64,000 nucleotides of DNA from Verrucomicrobiota bacterium (GTDB lineage: Bacteria > Verrucomicrobiota > Verrucomicrobiia > Verrucomicrobiales > DEV007): the NCBI GenBank assembly GCA_020630975.1, contig JAHDID010000019.1, forward strand, positions 1 through 64,000, read 5' to 3'. A program made the position numbers and the translations under genes. The notes under the pieces were generated by a model, which saw only the letters and a list, made by a program, of their open reading frames with translations, made no database searches and had not been told where the DNA came from. Shown here piece after piece: positions 647-22,900 of the stretch (the first letter of the stretch is position 1; each line of letters begins with the position of its first letter).

Positions 647-829
647 ATGAATATTGAAGCATTTGCAGACGAGGCGATCGACATGAGTGAGAAGGTTATC
701 GGTGGTTCGGTGCGTCAGTTCTATAAAGACAACTACAAAGAGTGCTATGACGGAGCTAGATGGAAAGAGCTCGATAAAGCCACTCGCAAGTGTATCCGCG
801 AGGCATACAATGCCTCTATGGAGAGCTAA
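647..829 (+). CDS. Small protein with possible Gly-Gly leader, copy 1 (60 aa)
   Basis: I do not recognise a family. About 47 of 60 residues are identical to the protein at 4229-4414. Most differences are conservative (E/D, R/K, Y/F) and there are silent third-base changes, so the frame is under coding selection. The first 20 residues are acidic and amphipathic and end in VIGG (Gly19-Gly20). The remaining 40 are basic and aromatic with two Cys (in KEC and RKC). A Gly-Gly ending at about residue 20 is what C39-peptidase exporters cleave, and such an exporter lies at 6079-8259. The upstream hydrophobic pattern fits the classical leader consensus only partly: Val at -4 fits, Ser at -7 does not. 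There is no strong Shine-Dalgarno. A conserved palindromic element follows 15 nt after the stop. The coding call is firm; the secretion role is inference. Confidence 0.75.
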   Translation: MNIEAFADEAIDMSEKVIGGSVRQFYKDNYKECYDGARWKELDKATRKCIREAYNASMES

Positions 830-844
830 AGCTTAAGTAACTTA

Positions 845-958
845 TAACGGCGAGGCAGCCATGGCGATGGCTGCTGGTTAGCCGTGCCTGAGGCGGTTAG
901 TTGGTTGTACGGTTTGACCAATGGTAAGTACACTCGCTCAACTAGTCGCCTGCTAGGC
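845..958 (+). ncRNA. Conserved structured element downstream of small gene, copy 1
   Basis: This element aligns almost base for base with 4422-4536. Helices visible by eye are ACGGC 847-851 with GCCGT 881-885; an 8-bp stem, GCAGCCAT 855-862 with ATGGCTGC 867-874, closed by a GGCG loop; a 12-bp stem of 892-903 with 939-950; and inside it TGTAC 906-910 with GTACA 928-932. In the other copy, pair 858/871 changes from G-C to A-T and pair 909/929 from A-T to G-C, which are compensatory changes. It could be a 3'-UTR structure, a separate small RNA, or a DNA fold-back acting in recombination. It matches no riboswitch I know. Confidence 0.5.
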
Positions 959-1095
959 CGTAATGGGATTCAAGTTTCGGGAAAAGTAGCTCAAATTTCT
1001 TTACCTGAATTTTCTACGGAGAGCTATCAGCTAGATCGTTTTGATTTTTGGCCTAGGTCGGCAGATCTCTATCTTTACTTCTGAGGTGCTTGGTA

Positions 1096-4228: not shown

Positions 4229-4414
4229 ATGAGCATTGAAGCATTCGCTGACGAGGCGATCGACAAGAGTGACAAGGTTATCGGTGGTTCTGCACGTCAG
4301 TACTACAAAGATAACTACAAGGAGTGCTTTGACGGAGCTAAGTGGAAAGAGCTCGACAAAGACACGCGAAAGTATATCCGCGGGGAATACAAAGCCTCTA
4401 TGGATAGTTATTAA
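4229..4414 (+). CDS. Small protein with possible Gly-Gly leader, copy 2 (61 aa)
   Basis: Paralogue of the protein at 647-829, about 78% identical, with one extra C-terminal Tyr. The acidic N-terminal 20 residues end in KVIGG, then a basic, aromatic 41-residue tail (YYKDNYKEC, WKELDK, TRKYIR). It has a single Cys, because the second Cys of copy 1 is Tyr here, so a conserved intramolecular disulfide is unlikely. The gene points toward and almost reaches the 3' end of the HlyD gene (gap 222 bp) of a type I exporter whose ABC subunit carries an intact C39 peptidase. A conserved structured element begins 8 nt after the stop. Family unknown. The coding call rests on conservation between copies; a role as exported peptide is inferred from the Gly-Gly and the neighbourhood. 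Confidence 0.75.
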   Translation: MSIEAFADEAIDKSDKVIGGSARQYYKDNYKECFDGAKWKELDKDTRKYIRGEYKASMDSY

Positions 4415-4421
4415 AAAATAC

Positions 4422-4536
4422 TAACGGCGACGTGACCATGGCGATGGTTTCTGTTTAGCCGTGCCTTAGGCGGTTAGTTGGTTGTGCGGTCAAAGGCCAT
4501 GGCTTGCACACTCGCCCAACTAGTCGCCTTCTAGGC
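4422..4536 (+). ncRNA. Conserved structured element downstream of small gene, copy 2
   Basis: Second copy of the element at 845-958. The helices are ACGGC 4424-4428 with GCCGT 4458-4462; GACCAT 4434-4439 with ATGGTT 4444-4449 around the same GGCG loop; the 12-bp stem 4469-4480 with 4517-4528; and TGTGC 4483-4487 with GCACA 4506-4510. Loop sequences between the arms differ from copy 1 while the arms keep pairing. The tail CTAGGC at 4531-4536 is also conserved. There is no T-run, so it is not a typical intrinsic terminator, though it may protect or end the transcript. Confidence 0.5.
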
Positions 4537-4636
4537 TTTAACGAGTTTTATCCATTCCTTACCTCATTTGTGGCAAAATCATCAGGTGGATGGTTAGTCT
4601 GAAGACTAGTGATGATTAGTTCGTTCTCCTGCCTAC

Positions 4637-6064
4637 CTAGGCTTTGTTCGATTCGAAGGCATTCGTGAACTGCTCAAAAATTCGACCCAATATACTGCGT
4701 TTTTTGGTGATAATTGTTGCATCCCCTTGCATCTCTTGTTTGAACGGGATGGTTTTTTTGAGATGTGTGGTAATGGTTCCCTCAAAGCTGATTGTGGCTA
4801 GGTGTGTGCCGCCTCGTGGAGCCAGAGATACGGCTTCGATCTCTGACCAGATGATTCCGAATTCCTTGGAGGGAAAGTCGGTTAGTTCTACTTTTACTCG
4901 TTGGCCGACCTCGACTTTACCTGCGCCGACTCCTTTGATTGCGATTCTACCCTGACTATCCTGGATCTTTGGGAGCAGAACGAAAACTTCGGTGCCTGCT
5001 TTTACAAACTGATTGTCACTCCAGTAATCGAAGAAAGATACGACACCATCGCTTTCGGCACGGAGGATGTACTCGCCCTCCCAGACATCGATGCTGGAGT
5101 ATAGGGTTTTCAGTGCTTCCTGAAGCTGAAACGTGACTTGTCTGAGTTGTTCACGTCGGTCGTGCTGCAGGGTATCGATCCTTTGTTGGTAGGTGCTGAT
5201 AGCGATGTTGCTGTTGCTGAGTTCGCTTGCGATATTGGTGGCGAGTCGTTGTTTGGAGAGAAAGGCTTCTTGTTCTTTGCGAAAGATACCAGGGCTGAGG
5301 ACGCCATTCCTCCTTAGCGTTTCGAGTCGCGCTATACTTTCCTGGGCGATCGAAAGCTCTTCATTGTAAATGGTGATCTGCTCATTGTTTCTGTTCACCA
5401 TCTCCTGTTGAAGAGCCATTTGTGCTTTGATATGCTTGACCGATTTTTCGGAGAAATCGTCTTGTAGAATATCACGGTAGTTGGTGTAGGTGGTTTGGAG
5501 TTGAGTGTATTGCCCTTGAAGAGAGCCTAGGTGGGGAATGATGGGGAGTTCGAGTTCAACGAAATTTTCGCGTGATGTGAGAAATCCTCTTAGCATCTCA
5601 GCTAGTTTCTTTGCTTGAGCTACGGATTCTGGATCAGAGGGACTCTTGATCACTGCTAGGATTTGCCCCTGAGAGACGGTATCTCCATTCTTGATTTGGT
5701 TGATTTCTATATGACCATCTCGGCGGGCGATGAGCGGAACGACTGGGCGTGATCCTACGATGGTAATAGGGGCTTTGATCACATCTGGATAGTTGATGTA
5801 GTAGGCGGCCCATAACAGGATAAGCAGAAATAAGGCTAGCCACGTATTACCGGTCCGCACCAGCCAATTAGGAGTCCTAGAGATTAGCTCTTGTGTGTTT
5901 TCGTTTATTTCATCTTCGTCGAGGGCATTTTGTGGTCTCCGACAAGGCTCTGAAAAAGTGCCAGCGGGCTGACTAGGTTGAGTGGATGGGGGTGCTCCTG
6001 GCGGAGTCGCAGGCCCCAGTCCGGGAGGAGGTTCATGAAAGTTTGAGTGATTATGGTCTTCCAT
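4637..6064 (-). CDS. HlyD-family type I secretion membrane fusion protein
   Basis: Periplasmic adaptor (475 residues) that links an inner-membrane ABC transporter to a TolC-type outer membrane channel. The N-terminus is cytosolic and Pro/Gly-rich (about residues 1-40). One membrane helix follows at about 72-88 (WLALFLLILLWAAYY), then a biotinyl-lipoyl-like half-motif (RRDGHIEINQIKNGDTVSQG), a long coiled coil (about 150-310) and a second lipoyl-like half with the beta-barrel part (about 320-455). It lies 14 bp downstream of the ABC transporter gene on the same strand, so the two form an operon. The Pro-rich N-terminal tail is longer than in HlyD itself. Family and role are well supported; the substrate is not determined by this protein. 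Confidence 0.93.
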   Translation of the reverse strand: MEDHNHSNFHEPPPGLGPATPPGAPPSTQPSQPAGTFSEPCRRPQNALDEDEINENTQELISRTPNWLVRTGNTWLALFLLILLWAAYYINYPDVIKAPITIVGSRPVVPLIARRDGHIEINQIKNGDTVSQGQILAVIKSPSDPESVAQAKKLAEMLRGFLTSRENFVELELPIIPHLGSLQGQYTQLQTTYTNYRDILQDDFSEKSVKHIKAQMALQQEMVNRNNEQITIYNEELSIAQESIARLETLRRNGVLSPGIFRKEQEAFLSKQRLATNIASELSNSNIAISTYQQRIDTLQHDRREQLRQVTFQLQEALKTLYSSIDVWEGEYILRAESDGVVSFFDYWSDNQFVKAGTEVFVLLPKIQDSQGRIAIKGVGAGKVEVGQRVKVELTDFPSKEFGIIWSEIEAVSLAPRGGTHLATISFEGTITTHLKKTIPFKQEMQGDATIITKKRSILGRIFEQFTNAFESNKA

Positions 6065-6078
6065 TATTGCAGTCAGTT

Positions 6079-8259
6079 TTAGCCATCCAGATCGAGCTGG
6101 TTTTTGACAAGGTTGAAATAATGGCCTCGATGATTGACTAGACCGACATGGTCGCCACGCTCGGCTACTCGGCCTTGGTCGAGTACGATGATTTGGTCTG
6201 CATTTTTAACCGTACTGAGTCGGTGGGCGATGATAACTACAGTTCTGCCTTGTGTGAACTCTTCCAGATTGGCCATGATTTTCGATTCATTAGTCGCATC
6301 GAGGGCACTGGTCGCCTCATCTAGCAGAAGAAATTCTGGGCTCTTGTAGAAGGCTCGGGCTAACAATATACGTTGTTTTTGACCGCCACTTAACTCTTGG
6401 CCATCGTCACCTATTTTGGTCTCTAGGCCATCAGGTAGATGATCAACGAAATCCGTAAGGCAGGCGAACTCTAATGCACGGTGTAAAAACTCTTCGTCTA
6501 TCTTTGAGCCGTCGCAGACGATATTTCGTGCTAGGGTGTCGGAGAAGAGGTAGCCATCCTGCATGACGGTGCCGCAGCGCTGTCGCCAGTGTCGACTATC
6601 GAAACTGGTGAGCTTGTGGCCTCCTAGGTAGATGCCACCCGATTGTGGTTGGTAGAGATTTAGCAGTAGTTTTAGTAGGGTAGTCTTGCCACTACCGCTG
6701 CCACCTACGATAGCGGTGACGGAGCCCTCCGGTATAGGAAAGGAAACATCTTTGAGAACATCATCGTGCCCAGCACCTTGGTAACGGAAGTTAATATTGC
6801 GGATCTCAAGTGAGCGATTATTGGGAAAGGTCTGTACCTTGTCTTCTTGGTAATCGGCATCTTCCGTGTGCTGATAGATGTCAGCCATACGCTCGAGGGA
6901 GATTTTGGCGTCTTGAGCCCCCTGGATAAATCCTAACAACTGGCTAAAGGGGGCGGCGAGTTGCCCGACCATATATTGAGTGGAAAGCATCATGCCTAGG
7001 CTCATCTCTCCGGTGATCACGAGCCGAGCTGCCATGTATGAGACTAGGACGCTGCGCATGGTTCCGATCAGTAGGCCGCCGACACTTTGGATCTGTGTAA
7101 CGACTTCTTCTCGGATTGCCAGGCGAAACTCCTGTGCGGCTATGTCTTCCCATGCCCATCGACGCTGTCTTTCGATGCCTTGGATCTTGATCTCTCGAGC
7201 AGCTTGGATCATCTGAACGAGAGTATTTTCTTCCTTTGCCGATATCTCAAACTGCTCGTTGTCTAGCTTCCGTCTGGCTTTCATGAATATCAGCAACCAA
7301 GCCACGTTTAGGATACTCAGAAATACGAACACCAATAGGATCGAAACATTGTAGAAGCAGAGGATCGCCGAAAAGACAAAGAAGGTAAGAATAGAGAAGA
7401 CAAAGCTCAACGATTCTGATGTGAGGAAGCCTTGGACGCGCTCGTGGTCACCGATTCGCTGAATGATGTCGCCTACTGTCCGCGTCTCAAAGAAAGCGAT
7501 TGGTAGTTTGAAGATTTTGGCCAAGAAATCCGAGACTAGAGAGATACTGATCCTCGAGCCCATATTCAAGCCGATCCAGGCTAGGATAAAGGAGCCGAAA
7601 GCGCCGGCGATGCCCATGACGACCTGAGCCACTAACATCACCGTGACGAAGCTGAGGTCCATATTGCCGATCCCGAAGTCGACGGTCGCTTGTGTGAGGA
7701 AAGGTGTAATCAGAGAGATCACCAAACCGACTGCCATTCCCAAGAACAGCTGGGCGAAAAGTTTCTTATGAGGTTTCAGGTAGGAGGCAAAGTACTTCAG
7801 ACTGCCGCCACTTTTTTGGCTCTCGGATGTGTTTTTGGTACTAAATTCGGGAGTTTCTTCTAGTAGGAGGACGTAGCCTTTGTCGCCGCCGCCAGAGAGC
7901 CAGCCTTTGACGAACTCCGACTCTTTCATGACGATCCTGCCTACGCCGGGATCCGCCACGTGAAACTTCCCCCGGCTCACCTTATACAGCACGACGAAGT
8001 GATTTTGCTCCCAGTGGATAATGGCGGGCAGGGGGGCTTTATCCCTCAGGCGATCGAGTGGGATCTTTACCGCTAGGCTGCGCAGGCCAATGGTTTCAGC
8101 AGCTTGAGAGATGCCCATCAGGGACACGCCCTGACGGCCTATCGAGCACATATCGCGAAGATAATGTGTCTGATAGCTACGTCCGTAGTGATGGGCGATC
8201 ATACGCAGGCACGTAGGACCGCAGTCCATCGCATCGTGCTGCTTGTAGATTTTCTTCAT
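6079..8259 (-). CDS. Peptidase-containing (C39) ABC transporter of a type I secretion system
   Basis: Inner-membrane exporter (726 residues) that cleaves a leader peptide and exports the cargo using ATP. The N-terminal C39 peptidase (about 1-130) has a complete catalytic set: Cys13 in DCGPTC, His87 in NHFVVL and Asp103 in VADPG. This differs from HlyB-type transporters, whose domain is inactive. Membrane segments lie at about 160-430. The nucleotide-binding domain has Walker A GGSGSGKTT at about 520, signature LSGGQKQR at about 622, Walker B with D-loop LLLDEATSALD near 645-655 and the H-loop IIAHR. Length is normal for bacteriocin or microcin exporters. It is followed after 14 bp by the HlyD gene; the TolC-like gene is divergent. 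The intact peptidase predicts cargo with a Gly-Gly leader; candidates are the small proteins at 647-829 and 4229-4414. The giants at 10909-43317 may also use this exporter. Confidence 0.95.
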   Translation of the reverse strand: MKKIYKQHDAMDCGPTCLRMIAHHYGRSYQTHYLRDMCSIGRQGVSLMGISQAAETIGLRSLAVKIPLDRLRDKAPLPAIIHWEQNHFVVLYKVSRGKFHVADPGVGRIVMKESEFVKGWLSGGGDKGYVLLLEETPEFSTKNTSESQKSGGSLKYFASYLKPHKKLFAQLFLGMAVGLVISLITPFLTQATVDFGIGNMDLSFVTVMLVAQVVMGIAGAFGSFILAWIGLNMGSRISISLVSDFLAKIFKLPIAFFETRTVGDIIQRIGDHERVQGFLTSESLSFVFSILTFFVFSAILCFYNVSILLVFVFLSILNVAWLLIFMKARRKLDNEQFEISAKEENTLVQMIQAAREIKIQGIERQRRWAWEDIAAQEFRLAIREEVVTQIQSVGGLLIGTMRSVLVSYMAARLVITGEMSLGMMLSTQYMVGQLAAPFSQLLGFIQGAQDAKISLERMADIYQHTEDADYQEDKVQTFPNNRSLEIRNINFRYQGAGHDDVLKDVSFPIPEGSVTAIVGGSGSGKTTLLKLLLNLYQPQSGGIYLGGHKLTSFDSRHWRQRCGTVMQDGYLFSDTLARNIVCDGSKIDEEFLHRALEFACLTDFVDHLPDGLETKIGDDGQELSGGQKQRILLARAFYKSPEFLLLDEATSALDATNESKIMANLEEFTQGRTVVIIAHRLSTVKNADQIIVLDQGRVAERGDHVGLVNHRGHYFNLVKNQLDLDG

Positions 8260-8525: not shown

Positions 8526-9968
8526 ATGGCGAGGTACTATCCATTCCTCATCACCCCTTTATTGTGGGTGGCATCCATAGTGGATGCTGGAGCGCCTGCT
8601 ACACTGGAGCAGGCGGCCGCGGCTATGCTGTCTCACGATGCGTCACTAAAAGCTGGGCGGTTGCGTGCTCAAGGCTCGGCAGAGGATGTGTGGCAGGCTC
8701 GTTCAGCGGCATTACCTCAAGTGTCTGTGGGCACCAATCTGGCTGCGAACCGTCTGTTCAACCAACGTGCGTCATCGCGGCAAGCGGACCTGAGTCTGTC
8801 GCTACGCCAGTTGGTCTATGATGGCGGAGAGGCTCTGTCTCAGACATCTGCCGCCCGGAGTTCGTTTCATTCTGCGCGATTCACCGAAAGAGAGAATATC
8901 GAAGCCCGGATGACGGATTTGGTGGCTGTCTATCTGGATATCTTGCGTACGCAGCAGCAGGTAGCTCTGGCTCGGAGCAATGTCGAGGCGCAGATCAAAA
9001 TGCGGAAGCTTCTCGAGTCACGCCAGGCTTTGGATGAAAATCGCTCTAGCATCGCTCTGGTGAAAGGGAGGCTGGAGCAGGCTGTGGATCTGCTTTCTAG
9101 GCAAAGGCTGGAGAACGATCTGGCTGTATCGAGATTCGAGAGGTACGTGGGGGAGCCACCGGGTGGGCTAAAGTTTCCCGATATCCCGAGCATACCGTCT
9201 TCGGCCGATGGTGTGGATTTTTCTAAAAACTACCAAGTGAAAGCGGCTAAGCACGCTCTGGATAGCGCTCGTCATACCTATCAGACCGTGCAGACTTTGA
9301 GGAAGCCACGTTTTTACCTGGATGCCTCCGTACAAGGCAATTCTTCGCACACTTCTGGATTCTCTCAGAATCAAACGAGTGGAGGATTGGCTATCGTCGG
9401 TAATTGGACGATGAAGGATGGTGGTAGTCGAGAGTCGCAGATTCGCCAGGAGCAATTGCGGGTCGAGGAGTACCAGGCATTGCTTGAAGAAATCAATCAG
9501 GAAAACCGACTGAGGGCTGATCTGATCATCAAACAAAGAAAATCGCTGGCAAACTCGGTGAATACGCTCAGTAGCTACGCGAAAGAGTTAGCTATCGTCA
9601 GGGATGACTATGAGCAATTGTTTGAAGTGGGTTACCAGGATCTGATGAGTATTTTGGATACTCAATTGGAATACAATCAGGTCATCAGCCAAAGGATCGA
9701 CACCTCATTTCAGAGGCATTCTTTGTCGTTTGAGATGTTGGCTTTGCAGGGTTTACTCGCTGAGTATTTGGTGGGGGATCGAGCTTGTGATTTAGATGAT
9801 GTCGACTTGCAGGGGAGTGAGCTACCTAGGTTTTTGACCAAGCATTATCCTGGATCTCAAATCGATCGTACACCTCCCACGATCGTGAACCAGGGGCAAC
9901 CGACCTCTCGCCCCAAGGTAAAGAAACCCTTCTTGTTTAAGAAGAAGCTAAAGAAAGGAGGCGCATGA
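8526..9968 (+). CDS. TolC-family outer membrane efflux/secretion channel
   Basis: Outer-membrane and periplasmic tunnel protein (480 residues) that completes the type I exporter with the divergent ABC-HlyD operon. It has a signal peptide (residues 1 to about 22, ending near VDAGA). The TolC pattern follows: long amphipathic helices with heptad-like Leu/Ala/Gln (about 30-220 and 235-425), repeated as two structural halves. Beta-strand-like segments rich in Ser/Thr/Gly lie at about 75-105 and 265-300, as expected for strands of the outer-membrane barrel. The C-terminal 60 residues are Pro/Lys-rich and end in a run of Lys and Phe, which is not typical of TolC. The stop overlaps the start of the next gene by 4 bp (ATGA), so the two are translationally coupled. 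Confidence 0.9.
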   Translation: MARYYPFLITPLLWVASIVDAGAPATLEQAAAAMLSHDASLKAGRLRAQGSAEDVWQARSAALPQVSVGTNLAANRLFNQRASSRQADLSLSLRQLVYDGGEALSQTSAARSSFHSARFTERENIEARMTDLVAVYLDILRTQQQVALARSNVEAQIKMRKLLESRQALDENRSSIALVKGRLEQAVDLLSRQRLENDLAVSRFERYVGEPPGGLKFPDIPSIPSSADGVDFSKNYQVKAAKHALDSARHTYQTVQTLRKPRFYLDASVQGNSSHTSGFSQNQTSGGLAIVGNWTMKDGGSRESQIRQEQLRVEEYQALLEEINQENRLRADLIIKQRKSLANSVNTLSSYAKELAIVRDDYEQLFEVGYQDLMSILDTQLEYNQVISQRIDTSFQRHSLSFEMLALQGLLAEYLVGDRACDLDDVDLQGSELPRFLTKHYPGSQIDRTPPTIVNQGQPTSRPKVKKPFLFKKKLKKGGA

Positions 9969-10837
9969 AGCTCCCCCGATTGAAGGTTGTTTTTGGCTTG
10001 GTGCTATGGGGATGGTTAGGGGTATCAAATGCAGCCGAGCATAGCCGGTTGCTTGATGAGTTTCGTGCGGAGCTACAGCAGAAGCCGGACAAATTAACCT
10101 ATGTGCTCGAAGATGCCTTGTATTTGAATCCCTCTCTGGCAGTACAGCTAATTTCAGTCGCTGGCGAGGTGGCTGCTAAGAATAATCTGCCTGTTTCCCA
10201 AGTGCTGCAGACCGGCTTGAGGATATATCCTGAGGATAGTGAGACTTACGTGAATGTATTGGGAGAGAAATTCCCCAAGTCGAGAGAGTATTATCGGACA
10301 CTGGCCGCAAGCTGGAAAAAGAAACAGCAGAAAGGCGAAGTTGGTGCTCAGGATTCGCCGTTGGAGAATTTTCTAGCTCTAGTCGAGACGATGGAAGCAC
10401 CGGCACCTGATGGTGTCGAGGCAGAGCCACTAGAGGTAGCTGAAACGAATCCCTATGAGAATGCACTACGAGTCCTAGACGCGGTCTATCCCACTACAGT
10501 TGGAACTGAGAGTGAATCGAATGATGCTGAGCAGCAGTCATTGAGGTCGTATCGGTTTCACCGTAGGGATGATAGGCAGCCTCTCCATCTGAGTGTGAAC
10601 TCTGACGCTGAGTCGGGTATAGGTAGCGAGGAGAAGCCGCAAACGGCCTACCGTTTGCATAGGGGCAGCCCCAGCCGGGAGTGGGGGACAGGTCAGGATG
10701 GCTTTTTACAGCAGGGGGCTCCTAGTCCGAAGAATGCCTCGTCTGGCGGGGATCATTTCTCGATGCCTATCGGCAAACGCGCGTACCGTATGTACAGGAC
10801 CGAATCTACCTCTAACTGGAGTCTGTCCAAGAGGTGA
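9965..10837 (+). CDS. Exported protein of unknown function coupled to the TolC-like gene
   Basis: No recognised family. The 290-residue protein has a clear signal peptide (Lys/Arg start, FGLVLWGWLGV core, cleavage expected after SNAA at about residue 24). An Ala/Leu-rich helical segment (about 25-130) resembles short helical repeats: EDALYLNPSLAVQLI, NNLPVSQVLQTGLRI. The C-terminal half is low-complexity, with three copies of a YR(F/L/M)(H/Y)R motif, each near Ser/Gly/Arg-rich text: YRFHRR at about 197, YRLHRG at about 229 and YRMYRT at about 277. Its ATG overlaps the TolC-like stop by 4 bp, so it is probably made together with the channel and acts in the periplasm in the same secretion pathway. 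The codon pattern matches its neighbours. Confidence 0.75.
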   Translation: MKLPRLKVVFGLVLWGWLGVSNAAEHSRLLDEFRAELQQKPDKLTYVLEDALYLNPSLAVQLISVAGEVAAKNNLPVSQVLQTGLRIYPEDSETYVNVLGEKFPKSREYYRTLAASWKKKQQKGEVGAQDSPLENFLALVETMEAPAPDGVEAEPLEVAETNPYENALRVLDAVYPTTVGTESESNDAEQQSLRSYRFHRRDDRQPLHLSVNSDAESGIGSEEKPQTAYRLHRGSPSREWGTGQDGFLQQGAPSPKNASSGGDHFSMPIGKRAYRMYRTESTSNWSLSKR

Positions 10838-10908: not shown

Positions 10909-13900
10909 TTAGAGTTGGTCTACCACTTGACCGACGATCTGCCCTGGGACCCGGCCTAGGAACAGTTTCTCAAAGTTGATGGGGTAGCGGGCTTGCTCAA
11001 GTAGGTCGATCTCATCAGGCCACTCTGTCTGTTGGATGCCTTCTATGGTGATTCGGACAGTGGTATTGAGTAGTCCCTCCTGCCACGGAATCATCACACC
11101 GCTGATACTACGTCCATTGGCGTCTCTCACCAGTTCTAGGATTTCACTTTCGACAAAGGTATAGAGCGGGTTGTTGTTATTGTCGTAGAGACTGATGTGG
11201 ATCTCAGGGATGTCATTCCAGTCTCCAGCTATGACCACTCTAGGCTCGTAATCTTCGACCTCGCTCAAGCTAGTCTCTAATGGTTGGAAGATGCCGAAGA
11301 AAAGTCGCTTTTCGGTGATGTGGCCAAACAGGCTGCTAATTCCTGAAAAATCAGTAGGTGCCGTTGGTTCGCTGTCATCTGCACCGGTCACAGTGATGGT
11401 TAGTTTTGCTGTACCACTAGCAGAGCTGCCTAGGGATTGAATGACGTAGGTAAACTCTTCAGTCACGACGTCGCCACTACCCAGTGTGGCTGCGGCATCT
11501 CCATCGATAACGTAGGTGTAGGTACCGTCGGGATTGATCGTTAAAGTGCCATATTGGCCGTCCACTATGGTTGGGCCACTCACTGTGCCACCTGCATTAC
11601 TACCCAGTGGTGTGCCTCCGCCGGTGTAGCTGATAGAGGCGACGACAGGTGTGTCATCAGCGTCGGGATCTGCTGCATTTGATAGGACATTGCCGGTAGC
11701 ATCGGCCCCAGTTGTGCCTGCTCCGGCTTTCTGTGCGGTGCCAGTCGTGTCGGTGGCGATTGGCGCGTCGTCACTGCCTTGGATGTCGATACTGAGAGTC
11801 GCAGTGGTGGTGCTGCTGCCATCTGTCAGCGTGTAGGTAAATACCTCTGATACAGTATCAGTGGCATCGAGGCTGTCGCTTGCGGCATCGTCCAGAGTAT
11901 AGGTGTAAGATCCATCAGCGGCTAGGTTTAGGGTTCCATAGAGCCCTGATAGGTTCACTCCTCCGACTGTAACAGCGACCGGGCTACCGCCTGCGAAGGC
12001 GACCTGTGTCACGCTCAAAAGATCACCCTCAGGATCGGTGTCAGTGGCGTCTCCGGCACTGCCCAATGTGGCATCCACGACGTTGCCGGTTGCGCTGGTC
12101 GCTGGTATCGCATTGGCGGCACCACCTGCCTCGGTGACGTTGTTGGTGTCATTGTTAGCTGTCGGAGCCTGATTCACGACTTCTCCGGTGATGGCGAAAG
12201 TGAAGCGGCCTTCATCGTCATCGTTGCTATCGATTACGATGGTTGCCGTCTGAGCGCCCAAAGTAGTGGGGGCAAAAGTCACTTGGAAAGTTGTAGAACC
12301 GCCGGGAGCTACTGTGCCACTGGGCTGAGTTGTGATCGTAAAGTCGCTCGAGGAACCTGTAGCAAGCGAGATTGCATTAGAGAAATCTAGCGTTGAGTCC
12401 CCTGTGTTATTAATGGTGAAGGTATGTGTCACATTGCTGCCCCCGACAGATACTGCGCCAAAGTCAGTATCATCTGAGGTAGTAGGGGAGGTGTCTCCGG
12501 CTGTGATAGATACCCCATTACCAGTCACTTGGATCTCGGGCTCATCGGCATCATTGTCTACGATCTTAGTGATGACTGTATCGCCGCCCTCGGCGATAGG
12601 CACAGCGTCAGCTACAAAGGTTAGTTCGCCAGTCGTTTCATCGAAATGAAACTGTCCAGCCGTGAGCGCGCCTGATGTGCCTGCAGTCAGGTTGACACCA
12701 TCATTGATGACGGTGATAGACGAGAAAGAACCGCTGTAAGAACCGGCATCGATCAATGTGATCGGGGTGGAGCCATCGCTCGCAATGGCTGTGACATCGA
12801 CGACTAGTGCGCCACCGAGGTTGGCCGAGTTGGCCACCTGCATGGTGGTAAAGCCGCCATTATCCGCTGTGTAGGCTAGTGTGCCAGTCGATGCGCCGCG
12901 GAACTGATCGCCCACCGTGATCGCATCGATCGAGGAGCCGATGATATTCAGCCTGCCATTGCCCGCGCCAAAGTAGAGATCCTGCGAGACATCGAGTGTG
13001 CCGCCCGATAGATTGTAGGTCGCATTGGTGCCTGCCTGGGTCGCTATTTGGAGCCCCGAGTTGACATTGGCACTACCATAGAGATCGACATCGAAGGTGC
13101 CGCCCGTCTGATTGACGATCACATCACCAGCATTAGCCTTCACCCCTAGTCGGGCACCGAAGAATGATGTGACGTGTAGACGACTCGCGTCGGCGATATT
13201 TATCGTGGTGGTATCGGGATCGCTGTCGCCATTATCCGCATCGACACCGATGTCGAAGTGCGAACCATTGAAGTTCGCCACACCTGTGCCGGAGACATCG
13301 ATCGTCACCGAGCCGCCGCCCGAAGAGATGCGACCATGGCTAGTATAGGTGCCTGCTGTGACTACGATGGCATCCTCTCCACCATTACGATGGCCGAGGC
13401 GGTAGTTGGTACCATTGGTTGGATCGCCACTGCCATTGATGGTATTGGTCGCCGGATCGCCCATGATCACGCTGCCGCCGCTCACCCGTATGGTACCATT
13501 ACCATCGCGATAGATATCTCCTACGCCAGTCGGAGTTTGTACATTTAGGGTTCCGCTCTGCACATCGACCTCGCCCGTCTCTGAGCCATTGCTCACACCC
13601 AGCTGAAGTCGCTCGATTGTCACATCACCATTCAGGGTCACCACATCGCCGTCGCGTATCGTCACTAGGCCAGTGGTATTGGTCGTATCGCCAGGCCAGC
13701 CACCGGAGAGCCCCCAGCGGTCGCTCTGCCAGTCTTCGGTAGTCGTGGCTGGAGATGCTGTCCCCTGTGTACCTGTGCCAATTGACACATTGGCTAGGGT
13801 GGTGGTTCCCGGATTGCTGATTTGAACGGTGAATGACTCGGTCTGCTCGTCTAATGTATCATCCACGGTCGAAAGGCTGATCACGAGATCTGTCATCTCA

Positions 13901-16900
13901 GTCCCGCCAGCACCTCCGGTGTAGGTGATGGTATCGGTGCCCGCATCGTAGCTGACGCTCCCCGGGCCTGTGTAGGCTGCTACGGCAGCAGCTACAGCGG
14001 CATCGAGGTCTCCATAGTCAGCAGCCACCGCAGTGCCGGGAGAGAGGCTGATCTGGACAGTCGCAGTTTGATTCTCCGAAAGTGTGCCACCTAGGCTCAA
14101 TGTGTACTCTGCAGCAGTGCCCTCTACTACCGCGGTATCGCCGACCAGCCCCCAGATCACCGTATCTGGCACGAAGTTATCAAATCCCGCATCCAGCGCA
14201 GTCTCCGCAGTAGAGGTGAGGGTGACAGTAGCTCTGCCAGTCGTGGTATCAGCATCGCTATCACCTGCCACATTACTGAAGCTATTTGCTCCTGGTACAA
14301 ATTCGACGATGTAGTCAATCGCGCCGGTAGCTCCGACCACGGCATTCTGTAGCTGAGCCGATGTGAGTAGACCATCAAAAGAATATACGCCGCCTCCAGC
14401 AGTCGTGGTCGATCTCAATACCGTACCGGGATCGGTAGAGAGGTAGAGATTCACAGTGATGCCATCGACTCCCTGTCCGGCTTCCTTCACGCCGTCGGAG
14501 TCATTCGAGTCGTCCCAGACCAGACCACTGATCGACGAGGTGCCGATCAGGCCGGCATCGATGCTATCGTGCGCCAATGTCGTAGCCGGGTTCAGCGTCA
14601 ATACTGGTGTAATACCATTCGTCCCGCCGCCAGCATTGGATCCAGTGGCGCTAGGAGCACCTTCGTTCACGGTAAACTCGGTATCAGTCGGTGCGGTAAA
14701 TACGAGGCGGTAACCTGTGCCGCCTACTGGATTGACCGGTAGATTATTGAAGGTGAAATCACCATTGGCATCAGTCGTGGCGGTATCGATGGTGGTGAAG
14801 CTGCCAGATAGATTATTCTGAACGGCGACATTCACACCTGCTGCACCCGCTTCATTGGCGTCTTGCACGCCATCGCCATCCACATCATACCACACATAAT
14901 CCCCTAGAGAACCTGTCTTGGCGAGTAGGATGCGATCGTTGGCGGCATCGAAAAAGACTCCGTAGCCAGCCGGTACTGTGACAGAGCTGAATGCTGTCGG
15001 GTCCACGCCTGTGTAGTTCGCTATCTCATAGAAGTCTTGGTCTAGACCAGTGCCCGTTACATTGAGTGTTGCGTTCGATACATCTAGCGACCCGGTTACC
15101 GATAGGAGGTCGGTGTTAGCTGCACCAGCGCCGACTTCTATCGCTAGGGTGCCATTCACGACCACATTGGAATCAACTGTCAGCGTGCCGATGCCATTCT
15201 TTCCTGGAGCGAGGGTGCCGCCGCTATCGATAGTCACATCGCCACCCGCTGTGCCTGAGCCGCCCAGAGTCGCACCGCTAGCTACTGTGATAGCCCCGCT
15301 CGCGCTGGTCAGATCGCCGGTCACGAGTAATGTCCCAGCTGCTACAGATGTCGTACCCGTATAGTTTGCATTGGAGGTGATCTCCATGGTGCCTGCGCCG
15401 GTCTTACTGATTCCCTGGGTATTCGCCATACTGCTAGCTATGACCAGATCCACATCATCCGTACCATCGGCTACGTTGAAGATAGTTGGCCCATTGTTAT
15501 CCATATTCAGCGAGCCACCAGTGATGGTATTTGTCGCGCCACCAGTAGTGGTAAAAGTGGTGCCTCGAATCACAAAGTTCGGGCTTCCCACCAATTCAAG
15601 AGTTCCGCCGCCTGCACTGCCAAAGATAATCTCATCATCAGCATGTAAAACGTGGCCGTTACCACCATTGCGGGTGAACTGAAGTGTCGACCCATTATTG
15701 ATGGTAACATCATCTCCTGTGAAATTCACAAAACCTGCCAGCGATTGAAAATCCAGAGTTCCGCCATTGATATCAGTGGTGCCTCCATAGGTATTGGCTG
15801 CCGTTAATGTTAACTCGCCTGCGCCTTCTTTGATCAAATTGCCTGATCCAGAGATAATGCCCGACAATGTCTGGTCGGCATCGCTATCGTAAATCAAAGT
15901 CCCATTATTGATAATCGAGCCACTGTAGTTACCCCCTTGCCAGGTGTCCGATCCTGCTATCTCTACCGTGCCGTCGGAAATCACCAGATTAGTGGGTGTG
16001 CTATTCGCACCCGTTAGATTGTAACCTCCGGCAAAGGTGACAGTGCCGCCGCCTATCTTGGTCAATGTTCCTGGGCGATCGTCTCGCACATTGGAGGAAA
16101 TCAACAGGTCCGTTCCAGATCCTGCCACCGTGTCTTCTACATTTATCGTCTTACTAAAGTTAAAGCTCACTCGATTGGCATCGATTTCGGCTAGGCCATT
16201 TCCTGTGACATTGATCTGACTATTGAATAGGAAGTTTCCAAAAGTGCCATTCCCAGGTGAGCCCGCTTCTGACGTTATTGTTCCACCATTAATGAAGTTA
16301 ATCGTCGCACTAACAGTGTGCACATAGCTAGCGGAAGAGTTATCGCTCAGCGTTCCGCCGTTTTGCAGGTTGATGGTTGATAGCTGATCAATAGCATTAT
16401 GTCCGCCAGCAGTCACTAATACCTTACCAGAGCCATCCACCGTTAGCGTGCCACGGATAATCTCTGCCCCCTGCAGGTCGAGCGTACCATTATTTACGGT
16501 CGTACCTCCAGTAAAGGTATTTGAAGTAGATAATACCAATGTTCCTGTGCCGTCCTTGACCAAGCTGCCAGTGCCAGAGATAGGGCTCGCTATCGTCTGC
16601 GCAGAGCTGTTATTCACAGTGAGAGTTGAACTTCCCTCTAGGACGATACTCGTACCGGCTGCACTAGAAAGCTCAGTAATCTCCACGGCCTGTGCTACAT
16701 TCGGCCCAGTGATCTCGATGATCTTATTATCATTGAGCGCTACTGTCTCGGCATAGGTTCCACTATTCACAATAATGGTTCCTCCAGTATCCACTGCCGC
16801 AAGAGCTGCCGCTAGACTGCCAAAAGAGTCGTACCCGAATGTGCCTGTCTGTACTCCTGTGGTGCCATCGTCCGTATCACCATCGGCGTCGAATGCGGCC

Positions 16901-19900
16901 TGGTCGGTCCAGTTGTCATCGACGTAGACGATGGTAGGTGCACTACGAGTCAGCACCACATCATTACCATCGCCTCCTACGTAGGAGATATCATAAGACA
17001 AGCTCCCGACCATCACCGCGTCGCCCTCGGCTAAACCGGTGAAGGTACCGGACACCGCATCGGCTCCGTCATTATCGATGATGGTAATCGTAGAGGCGAC
17101 AGGATCAGTCGCTACCGCAAAAGTCAGAGTGCCCGCTAGGGTCACCGCACCGTCCACATCGAGTAGGTCTGTATTTACTCCATCGATAGTGAAGTCGAAG
17201 TCGCCAGATACATTGGCATCGCCAGTGATCGTGAGAGTACCTTCATCGTCGCCTGAGGAACTGCCGGGCTGAAGATTTCCTCCTACACCGATAGTCAGGT
17301 CGCCATTCACCGTGCCAGTGCCGGTGAGGTCACCTGCATAGGCATAGCCACCACTAGTGCGCCCAGACACATCGAAAGTAGCGCCGCTCACGACTGCCAC
17401 CTCAGGACTCTGATCGATGTCGCCTGAAGCTGTCAGCGCCAAGGTGCCTGCTGATATTGTCGTAATACCTGTGTAGGAATTATCTCCCGATAGCGTTTGT
17501 ACACCAGCTCCAGACTTCGTTAATGTCAAAGCACCAGAGATGATCCCATTGTAGGTGTGGTCAGCAGCATTGCCGATAGTCAGTGTCGCAGCTGTGGCAC
17601 TGGTCACTGTGCGATTGCCAGTGCCCTCGTCTATCAAGCCGCCGATAGTTTGGTCATTTCCGTTTAAATTCAGCGTACCTGCAAACGTACTGGTGCTTAC
17701 ATTCACAATAGCATCGGTCGTCAGTGCGCCGGCGACATCTGTGCGTAGTGTCGAGCTCCACCTAGTCCACACATCGCCAAACTCATTGCCTGCTACATTC
17801 AGAATCGTCGTCCCACCGCCGTGAGACTCGAAACGTCCATCTGCGATATCGATCGGATTGGTCTCGAACGTAACGGTGCCAGAGCTATTATTTACTACGA
17901 AACCCAAATTAGCACCACCATTGCTCACCACGCCGCCTGTGACAGTCAGCGCGCCACTGCCCTGCGAGATCCTCGACCAGTCGAGCAGGGTGATCTGTCC
18001 ACTCCACTCATTGGTGCCACTACCATTCCTCAGTGGTCCTTCCCAGGTGCCGTTGCCGCGATTGTCCTGGCCTTGCACACTGATCGCTTCTCCTATATTT
18101 AGGCCGTTGCCATCGATCAATACCTGGCCTGTGGTTTCGACGATTGTATTGCCATCGGTCGTGCCTAGGGCGTTATTATGCTGCAGAGCCAGTATACCCG
18201 CATTGACATTAGTATTACCCGTGTAGGAGTTGTCGCCTGCTAAAGTTAGTCTACCTGTGCCATTCTTCGCCAGATTACCAGAGCCTGATATGGTGCCTGC
18301 GATGGTCTGGTCCGACGTGGTGTTGATTGTCAATGTCGAAGCCCCTTCGATATTGATTGTGGTGCCAGCGGCAGTCGATAAATCATCAATCGTGACTGCC
18401 TGCGCCGTATCAGGCCCTGTGATTTCCAGCGTTACATTGGCAGGGATGGAGATAGGTCCACCCTCTCGGGCTGCGTCGTAGGTGCCAGCGTTCACAATAA
18501 TGGTGCCGCCAGTCGGTGGTAAAGCAGCAAGCGCATTGGTGATGCTGCCAAATGCAGTCAGCCCAAAGACGCCGTTAAGCTCAGTAGCACTTGTTCCGTC
18601 GTCCAAATCTTCCGCAGACAAGTCAGTGCTCGCCGTCCAGTCATCATCGACATACACTGTGCTCACGACGTCATTGTCAGTGATCGTCACGGTAGCCTCG
18701 TTTTTGGCAGGCACTTCAGTGACTTTGATGTCGGTAAAATAGGTGCCATTGAGATTGGTTGAATTACTTTTTTGGGCGAAGGAAATGAATCGGTAGGTTC
18801 TACTAGTATCAAAACTAAAGCTACCTGTTGTGGCGGCACCACCGTTTAGACTGTAGCTGTAGCCGTCGGCTGTAACTGTGATAGAAAGAGTCTGTAGGGT
18901 GTTTATGCCTATATTACCCTGAGCAGTACTAAGGACTGATGAGGTTGAGCCATTGTTAAACGCCAAGGCATCGCCACCCGCAGCCAGCTCGCCATCGGTA
19001 GAAAAACCAATCCCGTAGGCACCTGGTCTACTTGAGTTTAGCCAATCGCTACCACCCTCTATCGGGTCTGTCACATCTACGATGCCAAACGAGAATCGGG
19101 TGCCGACTGCTGTTTGATTGAATGTGACATCCAATGTGAAACCCTCGTCATTTTGCCAAGAGTCGGTCGAGAACAACGTGGCGCGGTCATTACCACCACC
19201 AAAGCTGACTTGAGCACGATCATCTGTGGTATTCAATATCCAATTCGAAGAGGCATCGAAACCTAGGAAATCTAGTCCAGCACTGGCTAAATCTGCTGCA
19301 GTCAAATCGATAGTCGATACCACAGTACCAGCGACACTCGAATTCGCGCTGGTATCGATCGACACATGGGGAGCGCCACTGGTGATGCTGTCTAGTCTCA
19401 CCGTGACTGTCTCGTCGCCTTCGACGATCGCGTCATCGACGATGCCTGCCACGTCGATAGTAGCGGTGGTATCACCCGCTGCGATGGTAACCGTGCCGCT
19501 CAGAGTGGTGTAGTCGGTTCCCGCTGTAGCAGTGCTGGCTACATCGATACTGTAGGCGATCACGGTGTCCGTCGTACTTGTGCCGCTCTGGGTCACGGTA
19601 AACTGCCCTGCTACCGGACCTGTCTCAGACGCATCGGTAGTGGTCTCGATCGTTACTGTGACCGGAAGGGGTTCGATAAAGCTAATCGTACCGGTCTGAG
19701 CGCCGGAACCGTCCTCATCGCCATCGTCGATCGAAACTGCTATCGAATCGGCAGTGCTGGTGGTGGCCGTTGTGATTAGTTCTACGGCGGCTAGAGCAGT
19801 ATTTACCTCGGCTAGAGAGCCGGTCACTGTCCAGACTCCAGTACCAGCGGTATAAGTTTCACCATTGCCGCTAGCTGCTGTCAGCGAGCCATTGGCGGGA

Positions 19901-22900
19901 TTTGACATGGTCAGAGTGGCCGTGATCACTTCAAAAGGATCGATCTCGAAGTCTGTAGTGGCATTCCAGAAGTTGAAAGAGGTCAGTCCATTGCTGAGGC
20001 TAGTCAGGGTGGACGCCGCATAGGGCCCAGCATCTGGATTAGTCGCTGCGCCACTACCTGTAGTCGTCGATACCCCTAGGCTCACCGTCAGGTCGCCGTG
20101 CCAATTGGTATTCCCTCCCACAGTTAGAGCTTGGTTGGCGGGGTCGCTGCCGTTCACCGAATACTCCAGATTGTTGAGGGTGAAAAGACCTGCCAAGCTA
20201 GTTTCTACACCAGCTGTCAGTGCGGTGGTAGTCAGTGGTATCGAGACAGTGAAATCGCCATCGGTAAAATCGGTGTCAGTGAGCCCTGCAGGCTGGTTTG
20301 ACGCAGCGCCACCCATCTTTGCGACAAAGTGGGGAATGCCATCGACCATATAGACACCCGAGCCATTACTAGTCCCGCCTATCTCCCAGAGCACTCGAGT
20401 CGTTCCAGGTGCGATATCAGCCGCATCTGGAGTGAAAGTCAGGTCAAAGGAATAACCATTGGCCTGGTTTTGAGTGCCTGCGGTGAAGGTCGTGCCATTG
20501 CTCAGATCAAAAGTTGGCGCTGCACCTCCATCAGCTAGGATTCGCGACTGTACACGTGTCGCATCGGCATCGCTGACCACGATATCGGCAATCGCGAGCG
20601 TCTCCACCACGCCTGGCTGTATGGTCACGTCTTGGTCTAGCGGACTCGCAGTAGTCGGCTGGTTCACGTAGGTGACATCGATGGTCACTGTCGCATGGTC
20701 GTGTTCTTGGAAGCTGTGTCCTTGGCCGATTGCTGTGTTGTAGATGTTAGCGATCTCATCCGCCGTCAACTCACGATTCCAGATGCCCAGATCATCGATA
20801 CTACCATTAAAGTCTCGGTTGAAATCCTGAAAATCCCTACCGATATGGACTTCATTAGTTGTCGTCGTATTGAGAGGCGCTGTAGAGGTGGCTGAAAAGG
20901 TCTCGGCGACACCATCGACATAGAAAGTGATGTCATTTAGCCCATTCGATCCGCCGCTAGGCAAAGTCATTGCTACGTGGTGCCATTGGCCATCATTGAC
21001 GATAGTCGATCCTTTGACGTTACCGCCATTGTGCTCCACACGCAGAACATTACCCTCGACCCGAAAGATAAATTTTTGACCAGCTGCCGTGCCTCCATAA
21101 GAGACGATCGCACCATCGGACGAGGTATTGATCCAGGCTGAAATCGTACGAGCTCCTGAACCAGTGATATCAGCTCCCTGATAGCCATCTAGCACCACGT
21201 AGTCTCCAGTACCATCGAGGCTGAGCATATCGCCGCTCACCGGCGAAGTGCCCGTTACGACACTAGCATCACCATGGATCGAGCCAGCGCGGCCACTGCC
21301 GCTGAGATCGATCACAGCCTGTGCTGTCCCCCCAGACGCTTCTCCAAAAGCAGTATGGAAAACCAAGCCGCTGGTGAGCGAATTTTGATCCGCCACCGTG
21401 TAGGTAAACTCCTGAGTCTGGTCAGCACGTAGGCCTGTGCCGGGATTATAAGTCAGAGTGCCGTCTGCAGCTACGCTAGCGGTAGCGAGATTCTCAGTAT
21501 CTGACAGCGAGTTGGTATCATTCACACCCACTACGATCAGCGTGTCAGGGCTCGTGGTGATGTCGGTATCGCTATCGGCACCGCTGCCGTTATTGTCCGT
21601 AATGATATTGCCTAGGACTGCGCTAGCATCTGTCGAGTTGACGCCGGTAAAGTCATCATCCGTCGCTGTGACCGCATCGTTTTCTCCTTCGATCGTGATG
21701 GTCACAGTCTCGGTGAGGTTGCCACCACTTCCATCATCGATGGTGTAGGTAAAAGTATCGATTGCTGTCTCACCGAACGGCAAGGCATCGTAAAGGCCGA
21801 CGGTGGGGGTGTAGTCGACTGAGCCGTTAGCATTTAAAGTAACGGTGGCACCATTGGCAGAGGTTGCGCTTACGCCCGTGATGATCGGTGTCGTGCTGGT
21901 CCCCAGGGCAGTGTAAGCGGCGCCAGCAGCTGTCGCATCTAGTGCAGATCCGATTACTCGGAGTAGACCCATCTGCCCGACGTATGCTCCATGTGTCTGG
22001 GCCAGCGCCATTGCACTAGCGAGTCTGCCTATACCGGCATCGTCTCCACCATCCCAATCGTTGACTGCATTAGTGGCCGCACCTGCTCCATCAGCACCAA
22101 TTGTTGGGGTGGCATTGAAGCCACTCGTTTCCGTGCTTAGGTAAACTTCTAACGTATCGCTACCACCGTTATCACGATTGTATACGACAACTAAGTGATT
22201 AAACTCAGTAGTCGATACTGAACCAGCAGCAGTCGTAGCAATGAGATGAGTCGTCAGATCTGTATCGGTGCCTGCATCGATGGTTACGATGATCTGGCCG
22301 TTATCTGCATCGTAGACGATCGATGAGCCAGTACCCGCTCCACCGGCTTCCCACAGCACCTGAGTACCGGTCTGGCCGCTAGCAGGTTTAAAGACTAGCT
22401 CGAAGCTGGCGTCTTGATCGGTAGGGTCGCCGCTGATCGAACTAGTTGTCGGTATATTAGCGCCGCCTGTGCCTGAAAAGTCGTAGGCCTGAGTGATAGC
22501 TGTAAAATTCGAGCCTCCAGCTAAGCTAGTGGACGCTAAATTCACTCCTGATAGATTTGCATCGAACCTACTGCCTCCTGTACCTGCGTTATGCCAAGTA
22601 TTATTGGTTTCTTGCGTAGCGTTGAACTCTAGCAGAGCGGTAGAACTAGCCGTGTACTCGTCATTCCCGATTAGTTCATATTGGCCAATGGTGAGGGTAG
22701 AGTCCTCGGGCGCAACAAATGCATCTGGACGAGTCTCAGTCTCTCCACGTATCGTCAGATGCGCGGTATTGGTGAAGGTGTTTACCCCATCTGTCACTTG
22801 ATAGGTAAACGTATCTATCGCGGTCCAACCTGTGCGAAGATCATCGTAAGTCGTGGTAGCCGATGCATCATAGGTAAAGCTACCATCTGCAGCTACTGTG

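Follow-up and report, generated by a model that had tools for sequence, protein, structure and literature searches.

The C39 peptidase-containing ABC exporter (PCAT) encoded near two giant genes in the window is in all probability the exporter of two small precursor peptides, and the giants, in the most likely reading, are bystanders that would leave the cell by another route. Since the pump very probably handles the small peptides, the giants are probably not its cargo. This reading gives the exporter a concrete substrate pair and weakens the case for LEPR-XLL giants as C39 cargo. The window is the whole 64,000-nucleotide stretch that was analysed (C126:1-64000 of the source genome, G000, which has 7.14 Mb in 158 contigs; C126 is 101 kb), and its features are collected in Table 1. 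The PCAT, the HlyD-type adaptor and a TolC-family protein, probably the one in the window, would form the export system. The C39 domain would recognise the leaders of the two precursors and cleave after the Gly-Gly at residues 19-20, and cores of about 40 residues would be exported through the membrane channel. These steps follow the established PCAT model, in which C39 holds the leader and cuts after GG and the core goes through the channel, as it is described in PMC8277102 and PMC6363468.

Table 1. Features of the window and of related loci. Positions are those of the window unless a contig or locus is named.
Feature	Positions	Strand	Basis
Gene of proposed cargo: 60-aa precursor with leader MNIEAFADEAIDMSEKVIGG	647-829	(+)	Paralogue, purifying selection
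Two-hairpin element downstream of 647-829 (possible terminator or RNA element)	838-985	(+)	Fold z -2.4
Gene of proposed cargo: 61-aa precursor with leader MSIEAFADEAIDKSDKVIGG	4229-4414	(+)	Paralogue, leader family
Two-hairpin element downstream of 4229-4414	4414-4540	(+)	Fold z -3.9
HlyD-type adaptor (475 aa), next gene downstream of the exporter	4637-6064	(-)	PF13437, TIGR01843
C39 peptidase-containing ABC exporter (PCAT), 726 aa	6079-8259	(-)	Pfam, catalytic alignment, PDB matches
C39 domain of the exporter	about 7900-8253	(-)	Pfam
Outer membrane protein of the TolC family (480 aa), gene divergent to that of the exporter	8526-9968	(+)	OEP PF02321
290-aa ORF, 4-base overlap with TolC gene	9965-10837	(+)	No Pfam or NCBIfam match
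Giant 1, 5305 aa, LEPR-XLL-like N-terminus and metalloprotease-like motif; probably not cargo	10909-26826	(-)	LEPR-8K
Window-type C-terminus, giant 1	10909-11388	(-)	
Metzincin-like motif region, giant 1	26047-26826	(-)	
Giant 2 (5349 aa), with N- and C-terminal regions as in giant 1; probably not cargo	27268-43317	(-)	N- and C-terminal comparison
Window-type C-terminus, giant 2	27268-27747	(-)	
Metzincin-like motif region, giant 2	42538-43317	(-)	
Window-type C-terminus, third giant of source genome	G000:C128:25552-25983	(-)	
Sister-locus kinase, G240	L058:4619-5848		PDB match
Sister-locus kinase, L061	L061:13246-14538		PDB match
Sister-locus kinase, L083	L083:13460-14665		PDB match

Pfam placed a Peptidase_C39 domain at residues 3-120 of the exporter (117 bits), followed by ABC_membrane and ABC_tran domains. 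Cys13, His87 and Asp103, which an earlier note on this DNA had pointed out, were indeed all present, together with the oxyanion residue Gln7. The Cys, His and Asp residues aligned with those of solved double-Gly proteases (6mpz, the ComA PEP 5xe8 and PCAT1 4s0f), and all four residues were unchanged in a 55% identical homologue (G240:C457). Furthermore, PCAT1 and ComA matched the exporter over its full length (PDB 4ry2 and 8hf4). The exporter thus has two hallmarks of a PCAT, the N-terminal fusion of C39 to ABC membrane and ATPase domains and an intact catalytic Cys/His/Asp/Gln set. The third hallmark, a precursor whose leader ends in GG, GA or GS, was found in both small genes, which are the presumed cognate partners. 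The C39-TMD-NBD order, the catalytic Cys/His/Asp and the nearby GG-leader precursors are all shared with the AMS/PCAT double-Gly exporters LahT, PCAT1 and ComA.

The best NCBIfam scores of the exporter, about 445 bits each, came from the models of NHLP-type exporters (TIGR03796; 445.4 bits, cut-off 853.3) and HlyB-type exporters (TIGR01846; about 445 bits, cut-off 725.55). Both scores were far under the cut-offs, and by these models the exporter is a member of neither family. Type I secretion ABC architecture is common to the exporter and to the LssB/LapB-type exporters of large adhesins; however, the score with the LssB-type model was 358.6 bits (TIGR03375; cut-off 693.1) and the catalytic residues were intact, which sets it apart from that type. 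Within the source genome it was the sole strong C39-ABC fusion (121.8 bits). Two ABC proteins in 771-aa frames had weak C39-like domains, and three further C39 matches fell in frames of 187-289 aa, which could not hold an ABC exporter.

The adaptor matched PF13437 with 41 bits and TIGR01843 with 79 bits (under the cut-off of 208.65), and it was 33% identical to the HlyD protein adjoining the G240 exporter. For the TolC-family protein, OEP (PF02321) scored 89 bits and TIGR01844 96 bits, the latter below its cut-off. The ORF overlapping the TolC gene had no Pfam or NCBIfam match, and a search of 32 other same-genus genomes gave no more than two matches, both weak (E about 2e-4). No Rfam match was obtained anywhere in the window, and a promoter scan gave 8 hits against 10.7 in shuffled sequence, that is, no better than shuffles.

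The two small precursor genes are 78% identical paralogues, and both leaders end in VIGG. Comparison of the pair gave dN of 0.094 and dS of 0.563 (dN/dS about 0.17), indicating purifying selection. The duplicated unit (647-958 and 4229-4536, 82% identical over about 313 bases) consists of the small ORF and the downstream two-hairpin element. No homologues of the peptides were found at useful E-values in 17 other related genomes. Small ORFs with the motif [VIL]xGG were weakly enriched in the window alone (2/10, representing one duplication, vs 1/60; p 0.05). Across the exporter family, 44/362 small ORFs carried this motif and 13/362 the reversed motif (Fisher p 2e-5); many single GG matches are therefore due to chance, because the reversed motif also scores. 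Two small ORFs beside relatives of the exporter were compared with leader models; one matched the leader of rSAM-modified RiPPs (TIGR04149; 24.7 bits, cut-off 25) and the other that of class I lanthipeptides (NF038153; 31 bits, over the cut-off). GG-leader peptides usually have bacteriocin-like or signalling roles. We infer leader binding, cleavage, export, the use of the TolC-family protein of the window and the function of the peptides from sequence.

Relatives of the exporter were taken as the best 80 matches in a scan of GTDB contigs, with flanks of up to 10 kb per locus. By record title, 74 of the 80 were from Bacteroidota, and HlyD adjoined the exporter in 65. The large family closest to the window exporter is that of Bacteroidota-type C39-ABC and HlyD peptide exporters; over residues 1-330, identity to these 80 is 46-53%. 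The window exporter differs from them in belonging to a four-member Planctomycetota-Verrucomicrobiota (PVC) group and in having an adjacent TolC gene; phmmer found no TolC homologue beside the 80 relatives or the G240 exporter. In a tree of 90 rows with long branches (the window, 74 of the 80 relatives and 15 of 16 other Verrucomicrobiota C39 exporter loci, the rest omitted as short), the window grouped with the loci of G240, L061 and L083 with an SH-aLRT value of 99, a clade of four loci only. This group was placed among Bacteroidota rows, apart from the other Verrucomicrobiota exporters. G240 is a same-genus genome (locus L058), L061 is from a MAG titled Akkermansia muciniphila, and L083 is from a Planctomycetota MAG, although MAG titles may be wrong. 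In G240, an ORF of 56 aa, whose leader MKQSIFTKFADAEILGLEQVTGG looks canonical, precedes the exporter gene and HlyD comes after it; neither a giant nor a TolC homologue was found in the 20 kb covered at this locus. Our search of open-licence literature with selected terms found no paper on the exporter clade.

All four clade loci contain a small ORF whose leader has invariant F-15, A-14, I-10 and GG, with V or I at -4. Three options had been proposed for the exporter, namely two kinds of cargo, recognition of an N-terminal signal in the giants, or small peptides only, and the last is now the best supported, because this leader family is common to all four loci of the nearest clade. Among 647 GG-containing ORFs at the loci of the 80 best relatives, the L061 precursor ranked first in likeness to the window leader and a Bacteroidota ORF at L138 ranked second. 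Likeness of the leader alone is therefore no proof, and it is the pattern beside all sister exporters that carries weight. The numbers of shuffles per 100,000 that reached the leader score were 9-37 for L061, 84-108 for L083 and 759-970 for G240; the L083 leader was scored separately from the ranking, and the longest L083 ORF starts 25 codons upstream.

According to PMC6363468, Leu-7 is required by the LahT protease and Leu-12 is preferred. The window leader fits the LahT rule at -4 (Val/Leu/Ile) but carries no Leu at the other two positions, where Ser (-7) and Glu (-12) are found. Both Leu residues are also missing from the L061 and L083 leaders, and the clade would therefore need another recognition pattern. 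Compared with the AMS/PCAT exporters, the leader here lacks Leu-7 and Leu-12 and keeps F-15, A-14, I-10 and V/I-4. We favour the view that the clade would read F-15 and I-10 in place of the LahT rule, the alternative being that the pairing of exporter and precursors is wrong. The leader class defined here would depart from the best-studied C39 recognition rule.

The deviation from the LahT consensus also speaks for a reading in which the exporter serves peptides encoded elsewhere, while the two small ORFs of the window do something else. GG precursors were surveyed in part of the source genome only, and the small genes run on the strand opposite to the exporter rather than co-directionally. 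We consider this reading distinctly unlikely, since the leader is in register with those of three sister loci, only some 220 bases separate the nearest small gene from that of HlyD, and the small genes are under purifying selection. Export of the two window precursors is retained as the preferred explanation.

As had been claimed, both giants are LEPR-XLL-like, with LEARVLYSA in giant 1 and LEARVMFSA in giant 2 at residue 36; in the LEPR-8K model (NCBIfam NF012209, cut-off 17), giant 1 scored 18.3 bits, over the cut-off, and giant 2 16.2 bits, under it. Both carry the motif of LEPR-XLL proteins, and we judge both to lie outside the exporter system. The proposal that they lack a Gly-Gly leader also held. 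A Gly followed by Gly, Ala or Ser first occurs at residue 84 of giant 1 and at residue 77 of giant 2, and its place is not conserved among seven such giants. Their position beside the exporter was correct as to the neighbourhood, but two opposite-strand genes stand between the exporter and giant 1. We refer to giants with the LEPR motif followed by a metzincin-like HExGHxxGLxD as class A. The latter lies about 170 residues past the former, and the region matched stromelysin-3 (E 2e-4) and karilysin (E 8e-3); judging from this motif, N-terminal self-processing of class A giants is possible. The AlphaFold model of the giant 1 N-terminus was too poor to use (pLDDT 35). A profile of seven N-termini found the same giant N-terminus at 14 places in the source genome, only two of them beside the exporter, and LEPR-8K detected 7 further giants there at E <= 0.001. 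As a separate observation, a tandem array of four class A giants, each about 4700-8900 aa long, was noted on G246:C80:1-96489, where no homologue of the tested transport genes was found in 100 kb.

The LEPR-XLL-like segment has also been suggested as the leader that the C39 domain cuts. It is N-terminal and conserved, SA(A/S)P follows it, and the active site of the exporter is intact. On its distribution across genomes it was nevertheless rejected as a C39 leader, and we regard this reading as extremely improbable. Many genomes have the motif but no such exporter, and it was not observed near the exporters examined: none of the 80 best relatives had a LEPR motif, an ORF of at least 1800 aa or class A giant ends in flanks of up to 10 kb, and none of 16 other Verrucomicrobiota C39 exporter loci had LEPR or a class A giant beside it, one having an unrelated 1568-aa ORF. 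GG, GA or GS near the motif is not conserved. Among 33 same-genus genomes, class A giants were found in 11 and strong C39-ABC in two (G000 and G240), so that nine of the 11 giant-bearing genomes lack it; it was present in 2/11 giant-bearing vs 0/22 other genomes, a slight over-representation (p 0.10). Giants and strong C39-ABC occurred together in these two genomes and on one contig in one of them, the G240 giant being on C528 and its exporter on C457.

A phylum sample of 240 Verrucomicrobiota genomes was surveyed, as the earlier note had called for. LEPR-8K was found in 17/240 genomes and full-length strong C39-ABC (at least 80 bits in a frame of at least 600 aa), among the matches listed, in 14/240. 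Among the same matches, both were found in three genomes (G000, G126 and G232), leaving 14/17 LEPR genomes without strong C39-ABC; the weak excess in LEPR genomes (3/17 vs 11/223 others, p 0.066) speaks against our preferred reading. In none of the three was a LEPR model match on the exporter's contig, the window giants of G000 being below the E limit of that search. The single-contig LEPR genomes G018, G091, G140 and G186 had no C39 match among the matches listed.

A dual-use type I system is a further reading, in which GG peptides and the two adjacent giants share the exporter in this lineage only, the giants by an uncleaved C-terminal signal. A full ABC-HlyD-TolC set stands beside the two tandem giants, and the TolC gene, not found beside the relatives, was possibly recruited in the window. 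The last 160 residues of giants 1 and 2 are 68% identical to each other, and this C-terminus was found in three giants of the source genome and in no other genome of the same-genus set (1/33) or the phylum set (1/387, none in 386 others). The two-cargo reading keeps some chance here because the C-terminus occurs in no other of 387 genomes. We nevertheless consider it rather unlikely. The third giant with this C-terminus is on C128, where no C39 exporter match was found, although in the same genome; the F.GI..LF motif kept in the C-terminus is also present in other class A giants (a short hhalign match, 24 columns, probability 9.5); and such giants are common in genomes without a C39 exporter. 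Moreover, in PMC8277102, large uncleaved cargo is tied mainly to degenerate C39-like domains, which agrees with the premise from which the earlier note set out. As a general marker of giants, the window C-terminus was rejected, since it is confined to the source genome.

The giants may instead leave by LssB/LapB-type systems with degenerate C39-like domains elsewhere, a possible but doubtful route that is compatible with peptide export by the window PCAT. The source genome has two such systems (C40:170615-172912 and C43:19165-21471; 771-aa frames, with a weak C39-like domain without Cys), and in G270 the distance between such a system and a class A giant is about 8 kb. However, a nuo-like gene block lies between giant and system in G270, and the C40 system adjoins a different, non-LEPR large protein. 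LssB-type systems were present in 6/11 giant-bearing vs 7/22 other genus genomes (p 0.27), and G269, G271 and G261 carry giants without one. As the association was not significant, LssB-type systems were not accepted as the proven exporter of the giants. On seven other giant-bearing contigs of the source genome, no HlyD, TolC or C39 exporter homologue was found next to the giant; on C137, about 6 kb separate the giant from a generic ABC ORF without C39, and the C40 LssB-type system is about 40 kb from a class B giant on C40. G269, where a giant was found but no exporter of the C39 or LssB type, is one genome that can inform the export route of the giants.

The precursor cores of G240, L061 and L083 are Lys-Ser/Arg-Ser-rich. 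The window precursors have no Lys-Ser/Arg-Ser repeats, and their cores show no obvious likeness to the sister cores. All three sister loci have a linked same-strand kinase gene (401-430 aa). In L061 and L083 the end of the HlyD gene overlaps with this kinase gene; in G240 the kinase gene is upstream of the precursor. The kinases are homologous to one another, and their best PDB match was the yeast SR protein kinase Sky1p (1q8y/1how), with E-values of 3e-28 for G240, 5e-22 for L061 and 3e-38 for L083. SRPK/Sky1p are accordingly the nearest solved relatives of all three. The alignment places their glycine-rich loop behind the catalytic loop, and this position would make it a displaced N-lobe element; the AlphaFold model was too poor to use (pLDDT 41). 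No kinase homologue was found on the 101 kb contig of the window.

Linkage of the genes at three loci suggests that kinase and peptide may work together. Tentatively, and with clearly less than even confidence, we propose that the PVC clade has its own leader class, that the Lys-Ser/Arg-Ser-rich sister precursors are phosphorylated before export by the linked SR-protein-kinase-type enzyme with its moved glycine loop, and that the window branch retained the leader and the exporter, changed the core and lost the linked kinase. If this is true, these would form a class of secreted peptides modified by a kinase and distinct from known RiPPs. No paper on bacterial SR-kinase-linked peptides was found in the open-licence literature with selected terms. 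These loci point to bacterial clusters that pair an SR-protein-kinase-like enzyme with exported Lys-Ser/Arg-Ser-rich peptides. Finally, homologous large proteins (225 bits) were observed beside two of the sister exporters (L058:10743-12809(-) and L061:14961-20108(-)), and the N-terminus of the one in G240 appeared pilin-like by eye.
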